Source: Pseudomonas sp. FP198
GTDB taxonomy: Bacteria > Pseudomonadota > Gammaproteobacteria > Pseudomonadales > Pseudomonadaceae
NCBI RefSeq assembly: GCF_030687895.1
Contig: NZ_CP117452.1
Coordinates: 4,394,501-4,458,500 of the forward strand
Length of the DNA stretch: 64,000 bases
Direction of reading: 5' to 3'
The position numbers and the translations under genes were made by a program. Numbering within the stretch: position 1 is the first letter of the stretch; each line of letters begins with the position of its first letter. The notes beneath the pieces are model-generated. The model saw nothing but the letters and a program-made list of their open reading frames with translations, was not told where the DNA came from and did not search any database. Of the stretch, positions 13,244-21,441 are shown piece by piece.

Positions 13244-13741
13244 ATGGACATTTTCGTGACTGCTCAGCTCGTACCCTATGAAGACCTGACCGCGCTGCAA
13301 CGGCAACAGGTCGAAGCCATCGAAATCCACCCCGAACAGATCAGGTTTTCCGGCGATATCCATGGTGCGCTGCATACGCTGCTGTCCAGGCCCGCCCCTG
13401 GGGTAAAGGGTTTTGCGCTGCTGGCTGACGAAGTGCCCATCGCGTTCCTGCTGCTCAAGCGGCCACCCGTACTGCCCGCCTGGGCCAGCGAACACAGCGC
13501 CACCCTGCACGCCTTGCAGGTCGACCGCCGCGCCCAGGGCAAAGGCTACGGCAAGGCCTGCCTGCAAGCGCTACCCACCGTCGCCCGAGCGGCATGGCCG
13601 GAAATAAAGGGGCTTGAGCTTTCGGTGGATGCAGACAACGACGCGGCCATCAGCCTGTACACGCGCCTGGGCTGGGTCGACAGCGGCGAGGCCTACAAGG
13701 GCCGTATCGGTTATGAACGGAGGATGGGGTTGGTGTTTTAG
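13244..13741 (+). CDS. GNAT-family N-acetyltransferase
   Basis: 165 residues. The acetyl-CoA binding loop RRAQGKGYGKACL (motif Q/RxxGxG/A) is near residue 92, followed by the typical NDAAISLYTRLGWVDSG segment. It transfers an acetyl group to an unidentified amine. No clear ribosome site was seen for the ATG at 13244; a GTG at 13256 is an alternative start. It is the last normal GC-rich gene before the AT-rich island. Confidence 0.8.
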   Translation: MDIFVTAQLVPYEDLTALQRQQVEAIEIHPEQIRFSGDIHGALHTLLSRPAPGVKGFALLADEVPIAFLLLKRPPVLPAWASEHSATLHALQVDRRAQGKGYGKACLQALPTVARAAWPEIKGLELSVDADNDAAISLYTRLGWVDSGEAYKGRIGYERRMGLVF

Positions 13742-13828
13742 CCCAAAGGAATCGACACCAATCACCAGTGCTTCTTTGTATTATTGAAAGCAGCATCTGT
13801 AAGACACTTCTGATTTTGCTCACAGCAA

Positions 13829-13858
13829 TTGACGCTCTGCTCAGCGCGATACTATAAG
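13829..13858 (+). promoter_or_regulatory. Sigma-70-like promoter of the island operon
   Basis: TTGACG (13829-13834), 18-base spacer, TATAAG (13853-13858). It lies about 95 bases before the first island gene, in an AT-rich region of 211 bases without other genes. Confidence 0.5.
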
Positions 13859-13952
13859 TTCTAATTAGAAGAGGTCTTCATATATCTCTCCTTTACCGAC
13901 TCGTTTTTAGATCGAGCCTTTATCTTCGCCACAACACTGGAGGACAGTTCCA

Positions 13953-15008
13953 ATGACTGCTCTTGTAAAAACTTCATCCTCAAAAATCCACGAAAATGAA
14001 ATTTCCGTTCTGGATGGAAGAGTTTCAATACCCAAAGATTACCTGCGTAAACGAGCTTTTCTGGAAGATGCAAGCGCCCTCATCGTCTCGGGTTCGTTAA
14101 TCGAAGGTATTGGCACCCTTCATTCCGACATTGACTGCATTGTCTTTTGCAAGCAACGCCCCAAAGCAGATTCCATCGAAGAAAGTGGCCACGCGCTGGT
14201 AACTGACATTGACTACCATCACATAACACAGGAGGAGGAGGTCCACAATACAACAGACTTCTATGGCGAAACAAGCATCCATATCGATGTCGACTACATA
14301 ACATTCAATGAATTTGACAAAATAATCGCCAATATCGAAAAAGCTTTCAACGAAATAATCTCCGACCAACGCGTTCTTTACGGCCCCATTTTATCCAATA
14401 CAGAGAATAATATAATACATAGATCCCTGATTGGTTACGCACTTGCAAACCAAGAAAAATTCAACGAATTAAAATCATCAATTCCGATAGAAAAGCACAT
14501 CTATGTATCCCACCGTGAAAAGCTACCCGTATTCTATGCCTTCCAAGATGTCCAGGGCTGTTGGCAGTCAGGAAATTTATGGATGGGTTGTGAAATCGTG
14601 CGAGACATGCTGTTTAAGACAAGCATGAGTTTCACGTATTTAGCCGGAACGACGAACAAGCATTACAAGTGGGTCTATTCCAACATGCATAGAGTCAAAG
14701 GATTCGACACAATAAAAAGTAAGTTCTTCGTTTTAGCCCGCCAAGGTGCAACTACGGAGAAAGAGTGTCGATCTTATATACAAGAGGGACTTGAATACAT
14801 GGATCAATTATTCTTAGCCATTGAACAGCTTTTAAAGAAACACCCCTATCCTTCCGCACAACAATCTCTCACAGCGCTAGACAATGAGTTCGACAAACGG
14901 AAACAAACGAAACACAGAATTTCAATGTGCGAGTACCATTTCAGGAAAAAATATTTCGCAGCACAAGGGACGCCCTCCTTGATCAGCTTGCTTAAGGAGT
15001 GGGACTAA
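13953..15008 (+). CDS. Pol-beta-type nucleotidyltransferase, first gene of island operon
   Basis: 351 residues; GGAGGACAGTTCCA precedes the ATG. The nucleotidyltransferase signature is clear: GS at residues 47-48, then two metal-binding Asp in HSDIDCIVF (residues 59 and 61), and a third candidate in IHIDVDYITF. Relatives include aminoglycoside/lincosamide nucleotidyltransferases and MNT-type AMP transferases. The C-terminal 200 residues are helical and unrecognised; they could bind the substrate. Codon use is AT-rich, unlike the flanking genes. It may transfer a nucleotide to an intermediate of the pathway or inactivate a toxic product as self-protection; the sequence does not decide. Confidence 0.75.
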   Translation: MTALVKTSSSKIHENEISVLDGRVSIPKDYLRKRAFLEDASALIVSGSLIEGIGTLHSDIDCIVFCKQRPKADSIEESGHALVTDIDYHHITQEEEVHNTTDFYGETSIHIDVDYITFNEFDKIIANIEKAFNEIISDQRVLYGPILSNTENNIIHRSLIGYALANQEKFNELKSSIPIEKHIYVSHREKLPVFYAFQDVQGCWQSGNLWMGCEIVRDMLFKTSMSFTYLAGTTNKHYKWVYSNMHRVKGFDTIKSKFFVLARQGATTEKECRSYIQEGLEYMDQLFLAIEQLLKKHPYPSAQQSLTALDNEFDKRKQTKHRISMCEYHFRKKYFAAQGTPSLISLLKEWD

Positions 15009-15068
15009 GCAAAGCCCTTGTTAAACGCTCCACTTTTCTAGGTAGTACATAATTAGCGGTGGACCCAG

Positions 15069-16403
15069 ATGGAAGTCACCCGAACTGCCATTTTTTTAAC
15101 AGCATCAAGGCTAGGCGACCTGACGGCCCCACTTCTCTATCTATCCTTTGCTGGCCACTACATAGTTAACTCTCTTGGCCATGCATCACTCGCATGGGCC
15201 TATATTTCTTTCCTGACCGTAGTTGGAATTGGACTTTTCTCAATAATGCTAACTGCGGACGCCGGATCCGCAAACCTTAACGCAGATGAGACCGAGGCGC
15301 ACCTAATAATTTCTCTAAGACTCGCATATCTACTCGGCATATCGATCGCGATTGGATTAGTGCTTTACGTCTATATCTCCCCCTCCGACAGAAGCAACTC
15401 AGAACAAGCCCACGCCCTTCTAACACTCTCTCTTTCATTACCTGCCTCATATCTGCAGATTGTTATTTTCAATTTTTTCACAACCGTTAAAAAAACAGAA
15501 TACGAACTCATTTACATCTGGACTTTAAACACTATCTTTTGTCTAACCTGTATCATTTTAATAACGACCAATGCAGACATAGACTTAATAAAATTCACGC
15601 TAATCTATTCCAACCTAAAATGGCTTTTTGCTGGCGCAGCCCTCGTACTTTTCAATAAAGAAATTCACAAATATATTCCTGAATTCCAGCACTCAAGACA
15701 TATACCCATAAGAAAATATAGCCAATATCTGATAAGTGGGCTACCACTAGCATTGTGCATCGGAGGAGAAAGCTTATTATTTTTTCTGCTCTCCCTCATA
15801 TCGAACAGCCTCGATCACTTCAGCCTTTCAGCGTACCAAGCCTCGCTTAACTTTCTCCGCTTTGTATATATGATCGCAATTGGAATGGGAAACGCGATAG
15901 GAATCGCATGCGCTCGACACCACATCCAAAAAGACCTCGACTCTTTGCGCGCAACCTATACTCATGGACTTAAGCTTGGATTATTTACAATTGCCCCCGT
16001 ACTGCTGGCCTGTTACTTTCTAAACGACTATATCTCTATAATTTACACCTCACACATAGAAACCAGAAAACTTATTGAAAAAAACATTCTGATCTCCATC
16101 CCCTTTCTAGCATTCGAATATATTTACGTGATCACCCGAATGACTTTGAGAGGCATGGGTGACTTTTGGATCCCAACATTACTAACCGTGTCGTCGCTAA
16201 ACATCGTCGGCATTATCTGTGCTATTGGCCTGTTGTCTTTTTATGACGACAGCGTCCACTCTATATTTTTAGCCTTGGTCATTTGCTCATTGCTCTTGAT
16301 GCTGCTTTTAACTTGGCGTCTGACGTACAAATTTCACCACTACCCTCACCGGCAGATAAAGCGACGCCCAACCTCCAAAATCTCTGATACGTTTGCGAGT
16401 TAA
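15069..16403 (+). CDS. MATE/flippase-type multidrug exporter in island operon
   Basis: 444 residues with about twelve hydrophobic segments, in the MOP superfamily (MATE exporters and polysaccharide flippases). Typical features are an N-terminal half starting with RLGDLTAPLLYLSFAG and a similar second half (SGLPLALCIGGESLLFF, then GMGNAIGIACARHH). GGTGGA serves as the ribosome site. It sits 60 bases after the nucleotidyltransferase gene and 3 bases before the next frame, so co-transcription is likely. Within this operon it most likely exports the pathway product. The family is sure; the substrate is unknown. Confidence 0.8.
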   Translation: MEVTRTAIFLTASRLGDLTAPLLYLSFAGHYIVNSLGHASLAWAYISFLTVVGIGLFSIMLTADAGSANLNADETEAHLIISLRLAYLLGISIAIGLVLYVYISPSDRSNSEQAHALLTLSLSLPASYLQIVIFNFFTTVKKTEYELIYIWTLNTIFCLTCIILITTNADIDLIKFTLIYSNLKWLFAGAALVLFNKEIHKYIPEFQHSRHIPIRKYSQYLISGLPLALCIGGESLLFFLLSLISNSLDHFSLSAYQASLNFLRFVYMIAIGMGNAIGIACARHHIQKDLDSLRATYTHGLKLGLFTIAPVLLACYFLNDYISIIYTSHIETRKLIEKNILISIPFLAFEYIYVITRMTLRGMGDFWIPTLLTVSSLNIVGIICAIGLLSFYDDSVHSIFLALVICSLLLMLLLTWRLTYKFHHYPHRQIKRRPTSKISDTFAS

Positions 16404-16406
16404 ACT

Positions 16407-16850
16407 ATGAAACACGCAGATCCTACGTCACACACATCAGACCATCACACCGTCCCCATTACTATTATTAGCCGACATCATGCATGGAGGACATTAAGTG
16501 GTGTCAAGACTAATGATTATTACACCTACCGACATGCCATACAGAACGGCTGTCACCTTCAAAGAGCGTCTTTCGATCTTCGCCATCCTGAAGAGATGGT
16601 ATGTGACCTCAGTAATCTTGAGCGAATCTACGATGGAATGACAGAACAAGCCGTTGTACGAATATGGGATTACCTGGACGTATGGACGCGAAATTGGGCT
16701 CATGGAGAAATCTGCAGGGTAAGAGGTGATGGATTATCGCCAGAAATAGCTATTGCGGGCCCTTCAAAGGCTCGTTTAATCGAGGTAAAAAAAATCACTT
16801 ATCAAACAGGCGTTCCTGCATCTACGCAAAGGTATTTTCCCTACCCATGA
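16407..16850 (+). CDS. N-terminal part of a frameshifted phosphoribosyltransferase-like gene
   Basis: 147 residues as read. No known domain is recognised; the stretch CDLSNLERIYDGMTEQAVVRIWDYLDVWTRNW looks like a folded helical region. The last 18 residues before the stop (after VKK at an A8 run, 16787-16794) look unrelated to the rest. If one A of that run is skipped, the frame continues as SLIKQAFLHLRKGIFPTHEP and joins the next frame without a stop, giving one protein of 356 residues. So this is probably the first half of a single gene. Whether the shift is a real mutation, transcriptional slippage or a sequencing error cannot be told here. Confidence 0.6.
   Translation: MKHADPTSHTSDHHTVPITIISRHHAWRTLSGVKTNDYYTYRHAIQNGCHLQRASFDLRHPEEMVCDLSNLERIYDGMTEQAVVRIWDYLDVWTRNWAHGEICRVRGDGLSPEIAIAGPSKARLIEVKKITYQTGVPASTQRYFPYP
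16787..16794 (+). other. A8 homopolymer: probable frameshift or slippage site
   Basis: Eight A residues lie where two overlapping frames meet. Skipping one base (or gaining two) fuses the 16407 frame with the 16861 frame; the added residues between them (SLIKQAF through GAVRGINKDL) look like coherent protein. Runs of this length are known slippage sites for RNA polymerase and for replication. Confidence 0.6.
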
Positions 16851-16860
16851 GCCAGGAGCG

Positions 16861-17478
16861 GTGCGCGGCATCAATAAAGACCTGCCACTCATAAACATGA
16901 GTGACGCCACCTTGAATTTTCACAATAAATTTTGCGCGTTCTATAGTAGTTACATCTCGCATGAGCATTGGAACAGCAGCAGCTCCCTTAATACTAGATT
17001 CATTTATGAAGACCATGATATTTGGCACGAAATAGAACAGATATCGAACAACAAATTATTTTTATTATCAGCTGGTTTACCACTTGCGCTTGGCTATATG
17101 ACCGCAACGGGAGATAGCAATGTCTTTTTTTCGGAGATTCATCGACAAAACGATGCTGGCATGCTTTCAAGAAACAATGCCTTCCGAGACATATTTCCAA
17201 CACCGCCTCTAACAGATGAATCTTGGCTGATCATAGACAAATCTTATACCGGAGGAAGCTTAATACAAGCAGCAAACTTAATCAGAAGCACTTTAGGATA
17301 CAAAGTCAACATAAAGACCTTAGCGTTATTTCCAAAATCTTTCGGCGCCTTCATGAGCGCCGACTATGCGGTCTATGCAGGTCGATTGTACGAAGTAAAA
17401 ACTCACGCCTCAAAACTGGACAGAAACCATTGGCACAAACAACTTATCACGGGCCATCAACATGAGACCTCTATTTAG
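16861..17478 (+). CDS. Phosphoribosyltransferase-like protein (C-terminal part of frameshifted gene)
   Basis: 205 residues from a GTG; an ATG at 16897 is an alternative start. The PRPP-binding signature of type I phosphoribosyltransferases is visible: WLIIDKSYTGGSLIQAA (hydrophobic strand, D-x-x-x-T-G-G-S). The first Asp is followed by Lys instead of the common second acidic residue, so activity may be unusual. FLLSAGLPLALGYMTATGD could be the upstream flexible segment. The open frame extends upstream of the GTG back to the A8 run, supporting fusion with the preceding frame. Its end overlaps the next gene by 17 bases. Role: joining or releasing a phosphoribosyl group in the island pathway, inferred. 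Confidence 0.6.
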   Translation: MRGINKDLPLINMSDATLNFHNKFCAFYSSYISHEHWNSSSSLNTRFIYEDHDIWHEIEQISNNKLFLLSAGLPLALGYMTATGDSNVFFSEIHRQNDAGMLSRNNAFRDIFPTPPLTDESWLIIDKSYTGGSLIQAANLIRSTLGYKVNIKTLALFPKSFGAFMSADYAVYAGRLYEVKTHASKLDRNHWHKQLITGHQHETSI

Positions 17479-18295
17479 TAAAAAACACATTTACCAATTA
17501 GAAGAATGCCTTTATGAAGCAAGAAAAGAATTACGTCGCTATTGGGCGGGTACGCTAATTTGCCTACCTAGCACTCACCTAGAGGATATCTTTAACACCA
17601 CACTAACCGAGTATGACGTAGAGTGCCAAAGAATATTGCTAAATAGCTTATCCAATATCGACACACACATAACGATCTATTCAGAGGACAGCACCTCAGA
17701 AATTGCGCTTGGTAACCACGGAGACTTCTCCCTCCTCATAGACCCTTTAGATGGCACACACAACGCCATGCTGGGATTTCCCTCCTATACTTCCAGCGTA
17801 GCGCTCTACCACGGCAGTTCTTATATTTTCGGCTGGGTTTACGACATATCGAGAGATGTGGTTTTTACCGCAGCACTAGGTGAAGGGGCCTATTTGCAGT
17901 CACCCATCATTGTAAAAAGATTGAAGACTCGAAAAGTCAGCCATATAGATGATATGCGCATTTCATTTCACCGCCCCAACACAGACAGCCAGAAAAAAAT
18001 AATTGATAACCTATTATGGAGCGCAAATAAAGTCCGCATCTATTCCTGTTCTTCGTTAGAAATATGCCTGATTGCTGCTGGCATCCTTGACGCTTTTATT
18101 GATGTCAGCACACCAGGACACGAACGTAGCTGTGATATTGCCGCGGCAGAATTGATTCTCAAAGAAGCAGGTGGCGCAATGTTTGACGGCACAGGAAAAG
18201 TAAGATATTCCCTCCCCCCATCAGAAGAGTCGCTCACTGACAGGGGCACATTGATCGCATTATCATCCGCACAGTTAATAAAACTTATCATATGA
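17462..18295 (+). CDS. Inositol-monophosphatase-family phosphatase in island operon
   Basis: 277 residues. The IMPase metal-site motif is clear: LLIDPLDGTHNAMLGF (near residues 91-106; D-P-x-D-G-T) and a second site ERSCDIAAAELILKEAGG near residue 222. The first motif glutamates are represented by YSEDST near residue 75. The family hydrolyses small phosphate esters such as inositol phosphate, PAP, or sugar phosphates with magnesium. It overlaps the preceding gene, so it is translationally linked to the phosphoribosyltransferase-like gene, which suggests that it dephosphorylates a phosphoribosylated intermediate (inference). Confidence 0.82.
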   Translation: MRPLFSKKHIYQLEECLYEARKELRRYWAGTLICLPSTHLEDIFNTTLTEYDVECQRILLNSLSNIDTHITIYSEDSTSEIALGNHGDFSLLIDPLDGTHNAMLGFPSYTSSVALYHGSSYIFGWVYDISRDVVFTAALGEGAYLQSPIIVKRLKTRKVSHIDDMRISFHRPNTDSQKKIIDNLLWSANKVRIYSCSSLEICLIAAGILDAFIDVSTPGHERSCDIAAAELILKEAGGAMFDGTGKVRYSLPPSEESLTDRGTLIALSSAQLIKLII

Positions 18296-18324
18296 TATTT
18301 AACTAGATGGTAGAGGCATAGCTT

Positions 18325-19461
18325 ATGTTAATCGACATGGTAAATCTTAAACTTGAAATATTATGCCATGGCGTAAATTTCTCCCGAGAGTTCCTTGAGC
18401 ATTTCAAAGCTGCGACTGACCACATTGAAAAAAGGCGTGCTTACGGCACGGGCGACAGCGTCATCATTAGTTCAAATATTCGCACTCCGCAAGAACTCAT
18501 TCTAAATGAACAAATCATAGTTGCAGTCAACTACAATCCAAACTCAGATTATTTTATAGTCTTGGAGCGGGAAACGCCCATACTCAAACAAGGAAAGAGA
18601 AAAATTGAAATCTCATTTCCTAAGAGACCCACATTTTATGGAGCGCACCTGAGTAATGGCGAACTATGCGAACAACATTTAACTGCATATGGCAACTCGA
18701 CTCTCGGCATTTTCTCACCAGGCCATTGTTACTATTTCAATGACGGCCATGAATGTAAGTTTTGTTCGTTAGGTCCTGCGAGAAAGAGTCTCTCTGATCA
18801 CAAGATGCGAATAAAGGGCAGCTTGGCAGGTGAGGCTGTGGCCATGGCCATTACCAAGGAGAGTAATCGATATCGAAGGGTTCTATTAAATGGTGGCACA
18901 ATCCCAAACTATGACAAGGGCTACTCAATACATTTAGACCTCCTTGAGCGAGTAAAGAATACCGACGCGAATAGCGCATTGGATTATCACTTGATTTCCA
19001 TGCCTCCTAAAGACTTCCGCCTTTTCGAGCGTTTTAAAACAGTCGGAAACAATATGTCGATGAGCCTGGAAGTATTCGATCCCGAATTATTCTCTAAGGT
19101 CTGTCCCGGAAAATCTCGTGATTTCACTCGTGAACGCTTTCTCGCAGCTTTCGAAGCGGCGGTGGACGTGTTGGGGCGCGGTAACGTTTACGCTGGGTTC
19201 GTCGCGGGGATGGAGCCATTAGAATCGATTATCGAAGGAATCGAGTACTTCGGTGTAATGGGAGTAGTACCTGCTGTGGCGGTGTTTCATCCTGATGCCG
19301 GTTCTCAATACGCCAACCGGCAGCGCCCTTCATTAGATTTTTTGAAATCGCTTGGAAAAAAAATGTCGGAGATATATCAGAGGGAGGGCTTCAAACCATT
19401 AATTGAGGGAAGTGGCCGCAACTCCTTGGACACTGAAGCCTATCTGAAGGGGTTCGCATGA
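18325..19461 (+). CDS. Radical SAM enzyme with non-canonical CX8CX2C cluster motif
   Basis: 378 residues; AGAGG lies before the ATG (a second ATG at 18337 is possible). The cluster motif is GHCYYFNDGHECKFCSLG: cysteines at residues 135, 144 and 147, spacing CX8CX2C instead of CX3CX2C. Other radical SAM hallmarks follow: LLNGGTIPNYDKGY (GGE-like SAM amine site) and a later strand YAGFVAGMEPLESIIEGIEYFG with VAVFHPDAGSQY. About 130 residues precede the motif and form an additional N-terminal region. Such enzymes make 5'-deoxyadenosyl radicals for hard C-H chemistry. Its last codons overlap the kinase gene start (ATGA). The reaction is unknown. Confidence 0.8.
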   Translation: MLIDMVNLKLEILCHGVNFSREFLEHFKAATDHIEKRRAYGTGDSVIISSNIRTPQELILNEQIIVAVNYNPNSDYFIVLERETPILKQGKRKIEISFPKRPTFYGAHLSNGELCEQHLTAYGNSTLGIFSPGHCYYFNDGHECKFCSLGPARKSLSDHKMRIKGSLAGEAVAMAITKESNRYRRVLLNGGTIPNYDKGYSIHLDLLERVKNTDANSALDYHLISMPPKDFRLFERFKTVGNNMSMSLEVFDPELFSKVCPGKSRDFTRERFLAAFEAAVDVLGRGNVYAGFVAGMEPLESIIEGIEYFGVMGVVPAVAVFHPDAGSQYANRQRPSLDFLKSLGKKMSEIYQREGFKPLIEGSGRNSLDTEAYLKGFA

Positions 19462-20144
19462 ACAACTTAACTGAACGATCAATGTTTATTGCATTTGAAG
19501 GCACTGATGGTGCGGGAAAATCTACGATAGCAAGAGCAACATATAGTAAAATTTTCGACTCCTTTCCCGGCCTTAGCTACATAGACAAGAATCGACCACC
19601 GGTAACATCTGGATATACGGAATTCCACATGTCTCGTATACGCGAAATACTCTGGGAGTACCCAGACGATGCCCCGCTGGATCAGCTGGGTGACAGGCAC
19701 TGGATAAATTTAATAGCTGCTTGGTTCCAAGCTACCGATTACGCCGCCATTACTCCCTTAGTTAACTCTGGAATCAGTTGCATTGCAGACGGTTGGTACT
19801 ATAAATATCTGGCTCGCTTTTTACTTAAGAATTCCGATTTGGCAGAAGAAGCTTTGGCCATCTTTTCTACGATTAGAACTCCGGATGCGGTCATTTTCTT
19901 GGACGTTGATCCAGCTCGCGCGGCGCAACGGAAAGGGGCTTTTCGGCTTAGCGAGAGTGGCGCCTATGATGGAGGCAATGAGGATCGTTATAACAGTTTC
20001 ATCACCTATCAAAATCAGGTCCGATCCAGCTACGAGCTGTGTGGTTTAGCAAACTGGATAAGCATCGATACGACCGACCTCAGTGAGGAAGCCGTCCTCG
20101 ATAAAGCCGTCAGCTCAGTGCGAAACATAATTCCAGGAGCGTAG
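19458..20144 (+). CDS. Thymidylate-kinase-like P-loop kinase, last island gene
   Basis: 228 residues. Walker A EGTDGAGKST is at residues 14-23, the DxDPxxAxxRKG motif follows (FLDVDPARAAQRKG), and the lid region FRLSESGAYDGGNED is near residue 160. This is the fold of dTMP kinase, which phosphorylates nucleoside monophosphates. A second such kinase outside the normal tmk locus suggests a special nucleotide or a related phosphorylated substrate. Start and the preceding stop overlap (ATGA), so it is coupled to the radical SAM gene. GC content rises here compared with the earlier island genes. Confidence 0.8.
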   Translation: MNNLTERSMFIAFEGTDGAGKSTIARATYSKIFDSFPGLSYIDKNRPPVTSGYTEFHMSRIREILWEYPDDAPLDQLGDRHWINLIAAWFQATDYAAITPLVNSGISCIADGWYYKYLARFLLKNSDLAEEALAIFSTIRTPDAVIFLDVDPARAAQRKGAFRLSESGAYDGGNEDRYNSFITYQNQVRSSYELCGLANWISIDTTDLSEEAVLDKAVSSVRNIIPGA

Positions 20145-20177
20145 AACAATCAGAGCTACGAAGCTAAGCGTTGCCAA

Positions 20178-20197
20178 GCGGGGATCTAGTACCCCGC
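20178..20197. terminator. Hairpin at end of island operon
   Basis: GCGGGG and CCCCGC pair around eight bases, 33 bases after the kinase stop and 13 bases before the convergent GyrI-like gene end. There is no T run, so it may be only a partial terminator. Confidence 0.4.
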
Positions 20198-20210
20198 CGA
20201 TATGCGTCGA

Positions 20211-20699
20211 TCAGGTGGCTTTGAGCGGTATCCAGATCTCCAGGCTGCCTTTCCCCGTCCGCGGGTTGAAGTCTTCGCTGTAGCGCTCGAACTCAGGCTC
20301 ATCCGCCGCTTCGTGACCGGAATGTGGCAACCATTCCTTCCAGATGTACTGGAAAGTGTCCGGAAGGCTCTTCAATGGCCCTTTGTGCTCGAAAACGGCG
20401 TAGGGCCCGGGCTGGATTTCGATCCAGCGGTATTGTTCCGGAAGGTCGTCAAGCCGGCTGATTTCCACGCCGGCGATATATTCGAAGCCCCCCTGGCCGT
20501 CCGGGTTGCAACACACGCCGTAGGTCACTTCGTCTTTCTGCCCCGGCACTTTGCCAAGCCAGGGCAAGAACTTTTCCCAGAGCAGCGGGATGTCCTGGGC
20601 GGTATCCTGGGTAAAACGCGCGCCGAAACCGGCGATGAGCTGAAAGCGTCCTTGCTCGAAGCGCGGCTCGGATGCATTAACGCGTTTTTGCGATTCCAT
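20211..20699 (-). CDS. GyrI-like / AraC effector-binding domain protein
   Basis: 162 residues; the start MESQKRVNASEPRFEQGRF is chosen instead of a longer frame without ribosome site. The whole protein is one GyrI-like small-molecule binding domain (for example YGVCCNPDGQGGFEYIAGVEI and WIEIQPGPYAVFEHKGPL). Such free-standing domains bind hydrophobic or cationic compounds. It is normal GC-rich sequence, so it marks the right side of the island. Confidence 0.75.
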   Translation of the reverse strand: MESQKRVNASEPRFEQGRFQLIAGFGARFTQDTAQDIPLLWEKFLPWLGKVPGQKDEVTYGVCCNPDGQGGFEYIAGVEISRLDDLPEQYRWIEIQPGPYAVFEHKGPLKSLPDTFQYIWKEWLPHSGHEAADEPEFERYSEDFNPRTGKGSLEIWIPLKAT

Positions 20700-20778
20700 T
20701 GCTTCGACACTCCGGAAAACTTGAAGTCGGGTTTGGCAGTATAGAACCCAAACCGTGATTGCCAGGCCGTTTCGCTTG

Positions 20779-21441
20779 TCAGAGTCCAGGCGGGACAGCC
20801 GAGGCGGTTGTTCCGACAAACTCGTTATAGCCAGAAACGATCACGTAAACGGCGAAATAGCAGAAAATCGCCGCCGATGCCCAGTAGGAATAACGCAGCA
20901 ATTTATCCCCCAACAATTTTCCGCCCTGGGTTGCCGCCAGGCACAGGCCGGCGCTCCAGAGCAGCCCGGCGCAGAGGAATCCGCTCAGAAACAGCGCCGA
21001 ACTGACTACCGTGCCGCCCCCTGAGCGGGCGATGAGCGTACCCCCCACCGCCGCGAACCAGAGGATGGCGCTGGGGGACGACATCGCCAGGAAGATCCCG
21101 CGAAAAAACTCCTGCCGAGACGAGTTGCCCCGGACCTCGCCGGCCTCGGCCAGCACCGCACTGTGAAAGATCGCCGAATGAACCATCTTCGCGGCGAAAT
21201 ACAGCAACAGCACCGAACCGCCGATCCACAGCACCCACCGCACCGTTTCGTATTGCAGCAGGACAGTCATTCCGGCCAGCGCCAGGACCGCATAGACCAG
21301 GTCGCCTACGCAGGTGCCCAGGCCCAGGGCAAAGCCTTGGAAATAGCCGCGCTGCATCGCCAGGGTGATCATCGCGATATTCGCCACGCCGATGTCCAGG
21401 CACAAGGAAAGGCTCAGCAGGAAGCCGCTGGAAAATTCCAT
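20779..21441 (-). CDS. LysE-family translocator
   Basis: 220 residues with six hydrophobic segments. The LysE/RhtB fold is recognised from SLCLDIGVANIAMITLAMQRGYFQGFALGLGT, including the conserved glycine-rich third segment. It exports an amino acid or similar small metabolite; the substrate is unknown. It is a second, distant member of the LysE family in this window besides argO. Confidence 0.75.
   Translation of the reverse strand: MEFSSGFLLSLSLCLDIGVANIAMITLAMQRGYFQGFALGLGTCVGDLVYAVLALAGMTVLLQYETVRWVLWIGGSVLLLYFAAKMVHSAIFHSAVLAEAGEVRGNSSRQEFFRGIFLAMSSPSAILWFAAVGGTLIARSGGGTVVSSALFLSGFLCAGLLWSAGLCLAATQGGKLLGDKLLRYSYWASAAIFCYFAVYVIVSGYNEFVGTTASAVPPGL

Follow-up and report, generated by a model that had tools for sequence, protein, structure and literature searches.

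We analysed a 64 kb window of the Pseudomonas sp. FP198 genome and found seven open reading frames on the forward strand, separated by short gaps or overlapping, at positions 13953-20144. The original prediction of seven frames in one direction was confirmed at these positions, but frames 3 and 4 are pieces of one broken gene, so that the operon has six genes rather than seven. It begins with a nucleotidyltransferase-like gene (13953-15008, + strand) and a MATE-family exporter gene (15069-16403, +), followed by a phosphoribosyltransferase (PRTase)-like gene in an N-terminal (16407-16850, +) and a C-terminal piece (16861-17478, +), and by genes for an inositol-monophosphatase (IMPase)-family phosphatase (17462-18295, +), a variant radical SAM enzyme (18325-19461, +) and a thymidylate-kinase-like kinase (19458-20144, +). 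The operon lies on an island (13742-20210) between two convergent genes, encoding a GNAT protein (13244-13741, +) and a GyrI-like protein (20211-20819, -). Its composition is unlike that of both flanks, as had been proposed for an acquired AT-rich block: the G+C content is 43.7% versus 61.6% and 60.8% in the 10 kb on either side, and the third-position G+C of the operon genes is 0.43-0.47 versus 0.75 in the adjacent GNAT gene. Indeed, in a scan in 100-base steps the block is the lowest-G+C 6.4 kb stretch of the window, the next-lowest among stretches not overlapping 13-21 kb reaching 58.7%. We found no tRNA and no long flanking repeat at the island borders and, by open reading frames and Pfam, no integrase among the operon genes, while promoter and terminator scans of the island performed near chance.

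The PRTase-like gene had been read as a split architecture, which did not hold up: most relatives carry a single frame of ~350 aa, and the FP198 gene is frameshifted. Its N-terminal piece aligns with residues 1-129 of an intact relative, the homology of the C-terminal frame begins near 16783, upstream of its GTG start, and the frame changes near 16.79 kb, next to a stretch of A. We dropped a programmed split, since the Pseudomonas relatives carry one frame. The whole protein, with 36 invariant columns in an alignment of 23 relatives, gave no Pfam match and no convincing PDB match and scored below all curated family cut-offs; its assignment comes from a motif read by eye, the PRPP-loop-like IIDKSYTGGS in the C-terminal piece, and from weak profile evidence. 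The DKxYTGGS loop aligns on the PRPP loop of a combined profile of host PRTases (P 0.0077), and comparisons with single host enzymes gave P 0.00095 for apt and 0.035-0.14 for five others, against 0.18-0.55 for shuffled controls. One relative (P0159) is named phosphoribosyltransferase by NCBI. Together, this weakly suggests a PRTase-like protein.

The remaining predicted families fared unequally, the MATE exporter, the IMPase and the radical SAM enzyme being upheld by score, the kinase as thymidylate-kinase-like, and the nucleotidyltransferase, like the PRTase, on weak evidence. The nucleotidyltransferase shows a GS...SDID...HIDVDY motif by eye and scored 13.6 bits with PF01909, below the cut-off of 21; a different nucleotidyltransferase in the Photorhabdus operons described below scored 20.0 bits and matched it in a profile comparison (P 1.6e-5, probability 79%), PDB searches gave no convincing match, and the assignment is thus only weakly suggested. 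The exporter matches Pfam MatE (PF01554; E 5e-19, 69 bits, cut-off 24.9) and stays below its NCBIfam subfamily cut-off (63.5 versus 147.4 bits). The phosphatase belongs to the IMPase superfamily (PF00459; E 5e-33, 115.1 bits, cut-off 27), its best NCBIfam matches, FBPase/IMPase (1e-36) and CysQ (1e-22), all lying below their own cut-offs. The kinase matches the Pfam thymidylate kinase family (E 1e-7) and retains the P-loop, but reaches only 39 bits with the dTMP kinase model TIGR00041 (cut-off 83.25), with which the genome's own tmk scores 173.9 bits. dTMP kinases carry a DR(F/Y) motif, which reads DRF in the host tmk and is replaced by DGW in the operon kinase. PHROGs gave nothing beyond a thymidylate kinase for this protein and one weak unknown. 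Judged by these motifs and scores, it appears to be a divergent thymidylate-kinase relative.

The radical SAM enzyme is a member of the variant family NF045502 (E 2.5e-96, 322.7 bits, cut-off 125) and carries a CX8CX2C cluster motif, the three cysteines of which do not vary across 26 aligned sequences. The nearest named family, TIGR04043 (MSMEG_0568), is that of the Nit1C cluster (PMC6368324), and with this model the enzyme scored 106.5 bits, far under the cut-off of 303.7. PDB searches gave nothing useful; pentatricopeptide-repeat chains that appeared in the profile search (E down to 3e-7) were discarded as an artefact, because no stretch passed alone.

Is this gene set a conserved unit outside FP198? 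We examined 22 copies, 18 from Pseudomonas (FP198 included) and four from Photorhabdus, and found the full gene order in FP198, with its broken PRTase gene, and in 13 other Pseudomonas loci, whereas one further Pseudomonas locus has no exporter gene and three more are deletion remnants. The four Photorhabdus loci share the core of PRTase, IMPase, radical SAM and kinase genes, with an MFS gene in the place of the exporter, so that the exporter type varies while the core genes stay. The genes are therefore not scattered among relatives. Only two of the Pseudomonas loci are close (L002, an intact operon of P. mandelii, and L071; 96.5% in the nucleotidyltransferase gene), no other pair among the 18 reaching 95%. 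Counting a gene as intact when one open frame covers >90% of a reference, we found six intact genes in 11 of the 18 Pseudomonas copies and in one of the four from Photorhabdus, and the block is thus not decayed in all relatives. The P. gingeri copy is intact except for the missing exporter, in two copies the exporter alone is broken, and three have internal deletions; the kinase is cut off by contig ends in two. Of the 22 copies, 20 retain an exporter gene, which is intact in 16 (12 of the 18 from Pseudomonas) and broken in the others. The PRTase gene is broken in FP198 and two Photorhabdus loci, the radical SAM gene in one Photorhabdus locus, and overall 7/22 copies are damaged in the PRTase, IMPase or radical SAM gene. 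The nucleotidyltransferase gene is intact in six of these seven and in 21 of all 22 copies, the sole broken one being a deletion remnant; such retention beside damaged biosynthetic genes would, on small numbers, suit a protective role.

With its PRTase gene broken, the pathway is probably silent in FP198, barring an assembly error or a bypass of the break. The operon may well be a relic in this strain, real elsewhere and decaying here, a reading that we hold with slightly better than even confidence and that is compatible with a biosynthetic role of the intact operon. It has to be set against the other five FP198 genes, all of which are intact, and against the position of the break beside an A run in a one-contig assembly, where a read error or slippage is possible.

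The operon is rare. Radical SAM matches of at least 74% identity occurred in 14 of 398 Pseudomonas genomes (FP198 and remnants included; 12 at full length), and the remaining matching genomes held only enzymes of 26-29% identity, which we took as Nit1C-like. Scanning 84,980 species, each represented by one genome, with a pattern that detects close relatives only gave 14 loci, ten in Pseudomonas and four in Photorhabdus. Broad searches gave no further full set: FP198 itself was the single match both of the PRTase in 369 Gammaproteobacteria and of the radical SAM enzyme in 398 Pseudomonadota (E 1e-40), and 247 genomes of the Photorhabdus order yielded two radical SAM matches, one in the Photorhabdus from which the query came and a second with neither PRTase nor IMPase gene within 18 kb. 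Among plasmids, the C-terminal PRTase piece found no match, and the radical SAM enzyme (487 records, those listed mostly named MSMEG_0568 family) and the kinase (24 records) matched at <60% identity throughout; viral contigs gave no match. Carriage of a close gene set by plasmids or phages was accordingly dropped, the relative P0052 having one plasmid match and one weak phage match.

Elsewhere in Pseudomonas, the GNAT and GyrI-like genes can be found facing each other without the block, which points to an insertion at that site. Among 29 other Pseudomonas GNAT loci, the matches face each other at a distance of ≤ ~120 bp in six, the GyrI-like gene lies 0.5-1.5 kb away in seven, and it was not seen within the 1.5 kb beside the GNAT gene in 16. 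On this comparison, the island borders appear consistent with an empty site in other Pseudomonas. The same GNAT gene precedes the operon in 14 of 18 Pseudomonas copies (absent in L007, L070 and L111; L113 is too short to judge), and the GyrI-like gene follows it in 11 of 18 (not seen in L003, L007, L011 and L111; three loci end too early). Since some copies have neither or only one of these neighbours, the block occupies a different site in at least some strains. The contrast in composition recurs, with 41-44% G+C in five measured Pseudomonas operons versus 61-64% around them, and 29-30% in three Photorhabdus operons versus 39-45%. These observations support horizontal acquisition of the operon.

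We further observed that the PRTase and radical SAM genes are co-inherited and diverge in step. Their pairwise distances correlate over 21 pairs (r 0.95), over 12 distant pairs (r 0.86) and within eight Pseudomonas pairs (r 0.97), with P 0.0001 each. For 11 of 18 distant PRTase entries, the longest contig has exactly the size of that of a radical SAM entry, and of the seven without such a counterpart, three are contigs shorter than 2.3 kb. Pontibacillus litoralis and Bacillus atrophaeus are named as species for both proteins; for the Bacillota, co-occurrence is judged by equal contig sizes and, for Bacillus atrophaeus, by the species name. In a tree of 56 radical SAM sequences, the FP198 enzyme falls into a group of 22 (support 97/88) together with seven other PRTase-linked sequences and the Photorhabdus enzymes, and a group of nine contains four PRTase-linked sequences and all six Bacillota-named ones, from Bacillus, Mammaliicoccus, Pontibacillus, Aeribacillus and Listeria. 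Every tested gene is under purifying selection: all comparisons with a finite dS gave dN/dS of 0.05-0.19. In several of them dS is above 2, and saturation leaves most FP198 comparisons with no ratio. The gene set is thus a real conserved unit, present in scattered Pseudomonas and Photorhabdus and partly in Bacillus relatives.

Distant relatives of the operon genes have informative neighbours. A weakly supported group of ten in the same tree holds an NF045502 member from an Agrobacterium plasmid (L048), whose gene directly adjoins that of an OxsB homologue (PDB 5ul2, E 6e-74), which places remote members of the radical SAM family near nucleotide chemistry. The FP198 enzyme is 32% identical to it and lies outside its group, so their chemistry may differ. 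In Nocardia, a relative of the kinase also lies next to an OxsB homologue (E 3e-67), another adjoins a nucleotidyltransferase-looking gene in Rhizobium, and in locus L069 the gene of a 193-aa nucleotide-kinase-like protein overlaps that of a distant variant radical SAM enzyme.

The pairing in L048 resembles that of albucidin in Streptomyces albus subsp. chlorinus, where albA ("biotin synthase, radical SAM") lies beside the oxsB-like albB, both being essential, and AlbA is proposed to remove an aldehyde from the nucleoside (PMC7074753). There, too, the proposed substrate of a radical SAM enzyme is an intermediate derived from a deoxynucleoside, and the same cloned region contains an annotated thymidylate kinase gene, the deletion of which had no effect (PMC7074753). 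We infer that AlbA belongs to the variant radical SAM family, and used L048 as its proxy in the tree. In contrast to albucidin, the FP198 operon has no OxsB homologue but has PRTase, IMPase, nucleotidyltransferase and exporter genes; since none of its genes encodes an OxsB/AlbB-type B12 radical SAM enzyme, it does not qualify as an albucidin or oxetanocin cluster. The two albucidin enzymes have reportedly been studied in vitro. A second likeness is the 4'-thiothymidine antibiotic made by thmA-C of Photorhabdus asymbiotica DSM 15149, the strain of one of our Photorhabdus loci (L012), where a radical SAM enzyme, a kinase and a nucleotide-hydrolysing enzyme lead to a nucleoside antibiotic (PMC12691670). 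At a separate locus of this genome we found a 300-aa CX3CX2C radical SAM enzyme, a dNK-type kinase and a NUDIX protein, a trio that we identified as the putative thm by its gene types rather than by the deposited sequence. We rejected the operon being thmA-C: the locus is another one, and the best blastp match of nucleotidyltransferase, IMPase, radical SAM enzyme and kinase had E 0.009, in the P-loop of the kinase only. Angustmycin (PMC8599513) and minimycin (PMC8724604) share, by description, the logic of a PRTase-type transfer and a phosphatase, and in minimycin a phosphatase, a transporter and a PRTase give self-protection (PMC8724604); the parts of the two reports consulted name no radical SAM enzyme. 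Consistent with the original prediction, we found no described cluster or known pathway with this gene set in our searches of the open full-text literature.

On balance, we favour the view that the operon serves the synthesis and export of a small molecule derived from a nucleotide, most probably a nucleoside-like compound with antimicrobial activity. The PRTase-like enzyme would join or exchange a ribose-phosphate unit, the kinase would phosphorylate a (deoxy)nucleoside monophosphate, possibly with a temporary phosphate, and the CX8CX2C radical SAM enzyme would rearrange or cleave the sugar or base. Release of the product through removal of the phosphate would fall to the IMPase-family enzyme, and its export to the MATE or, in Photorhabdus, the MFS protein; indeed, a kinase together with a CysQ-resembling IMPase would fit a phosphate that is put on during synthesis and taken off ahead of export, for which nucleoside antibiotics offer precedents (PMC8724604). 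The nucleotidyltransferase, a candidate immunity or tailoring gene, might protect the producer or cap the product. The exported nucleoside-like or phosphosugar-derived product proposed originally agrees with these gene families, from which its class is predicted.

Viperin-like systems block phage replication by a modified nucleotide, and an intracellular anti-phage defence, in which kinase and radical SAM enzyme would make such a nucleotide, could account for the patchy spread (14/398 Pseudomonas genomes, FP198 and remnants included, at the 74% identity level) and for weak PADLOC matches of the kinase (VakA, 7e-7; PDC-M51B, 4e-5). We regard it as unlikely: the other six frames had no PADLOC match, the operon encodes an IMPase-family phosphatase, and an exporter gene accompanies nearly all copies. 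A catabolic or assimilation pathway like Nit1C, to which the score with TIGR04043 might point, is very improbable given how far that score lies under the cut-off, the absence of nitrilase and AIR-synthase-like genes from the block and the occurrence of a separate Nit1C-type enzyme elsewhere in Photorhabdus (CX9CX2C, 26-30% identical); the Nit1C cluster differs in partner genes, in cysteine spacing and in its radical SAM enzyme, at 26-30% identity (PMC6368324).

Returning to the exported nucleoside-like compound, we tentatively propose, with clearly less confidence, that it represents a new class of nucleotide-derived antibiotics, spread horizontally among Pseudomonas, Photorhabdus and Bacillota, in which an undescribed radical SAM reaction would act on a nucleotide supplied by the unassigned PRTase-like family and by a thymidylate-kinase fold recruited to a new role. 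In the searches made, we found no described reaction for this radical SAM clade and no Pfam family for the PRTase-like protein. As the operon is compact, comprising six genes, and intact in culturable Pseudomonas, both proteins are directly testable. The operon could also be the source of a new antibiotic of the nucleoside type in Gram-negative bacteria.

Internal deletions, each different, were found in three Pseudomonas copies of the operon (L013, L070 and L072, the last being one and the same locus as L015), and in all of them the middle genes are gone. The nucleotidyltransferase end is kept in each of these deleted copies, among which the nucleotidyltransferase frame is broken in L015 only. 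Within Photorhabdus, the PRTase-like frame carries one in-frame TGA in the P. asymbiotica copy and one TAA in that of P. heterorhabditis.

Relatives of operon genes were located on plasmids of other bacteria. On a Rhizobium sp. T1473 plasmid (locus L045, 5042-11289), a thymidylate-kinase (TMK)-like kinase gene and a nucleotidyltransferase-looking gene have as neighbours a pair of radical SAM genes and a gene annotated as a pyrophosphatase. A gene group on a Streptomyces sp. NBC_00536 plasmid (locus L046, 4235-8663), possibly devoted to 7-deazaguanine DNA modification, holds a TMK-like kinase together with genes annotated as 6-carboxytetrahydropterin synthase, QueE and GTP cyclohydrolase, and a protein that by eye resembles a transglycosylase; the same plasmid bears a phage portal gene.

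Homologues of OxsB, the B12 radical SAM enzyme of oxetanocin, occur at two further plasmid loci. In Nocardia sp. NBC_01327 (plasmid; locus L047, 6077-11868), the homologue adjoins a TMK-like kinase-aminotransferase fusion, followed by a formyltransferase-family gene; this group is possibly a nucleoside cluster. On an Agrobacterium pusense plasmid (locus L048, 5723-9125), it is directly followed by genes for a variant radical SAM enzyme, NUDIX and GalE, with an MFS gene further on, and we regard this group as a candidate albucidin/oxetanocin-like cluster in a proteobacterium.
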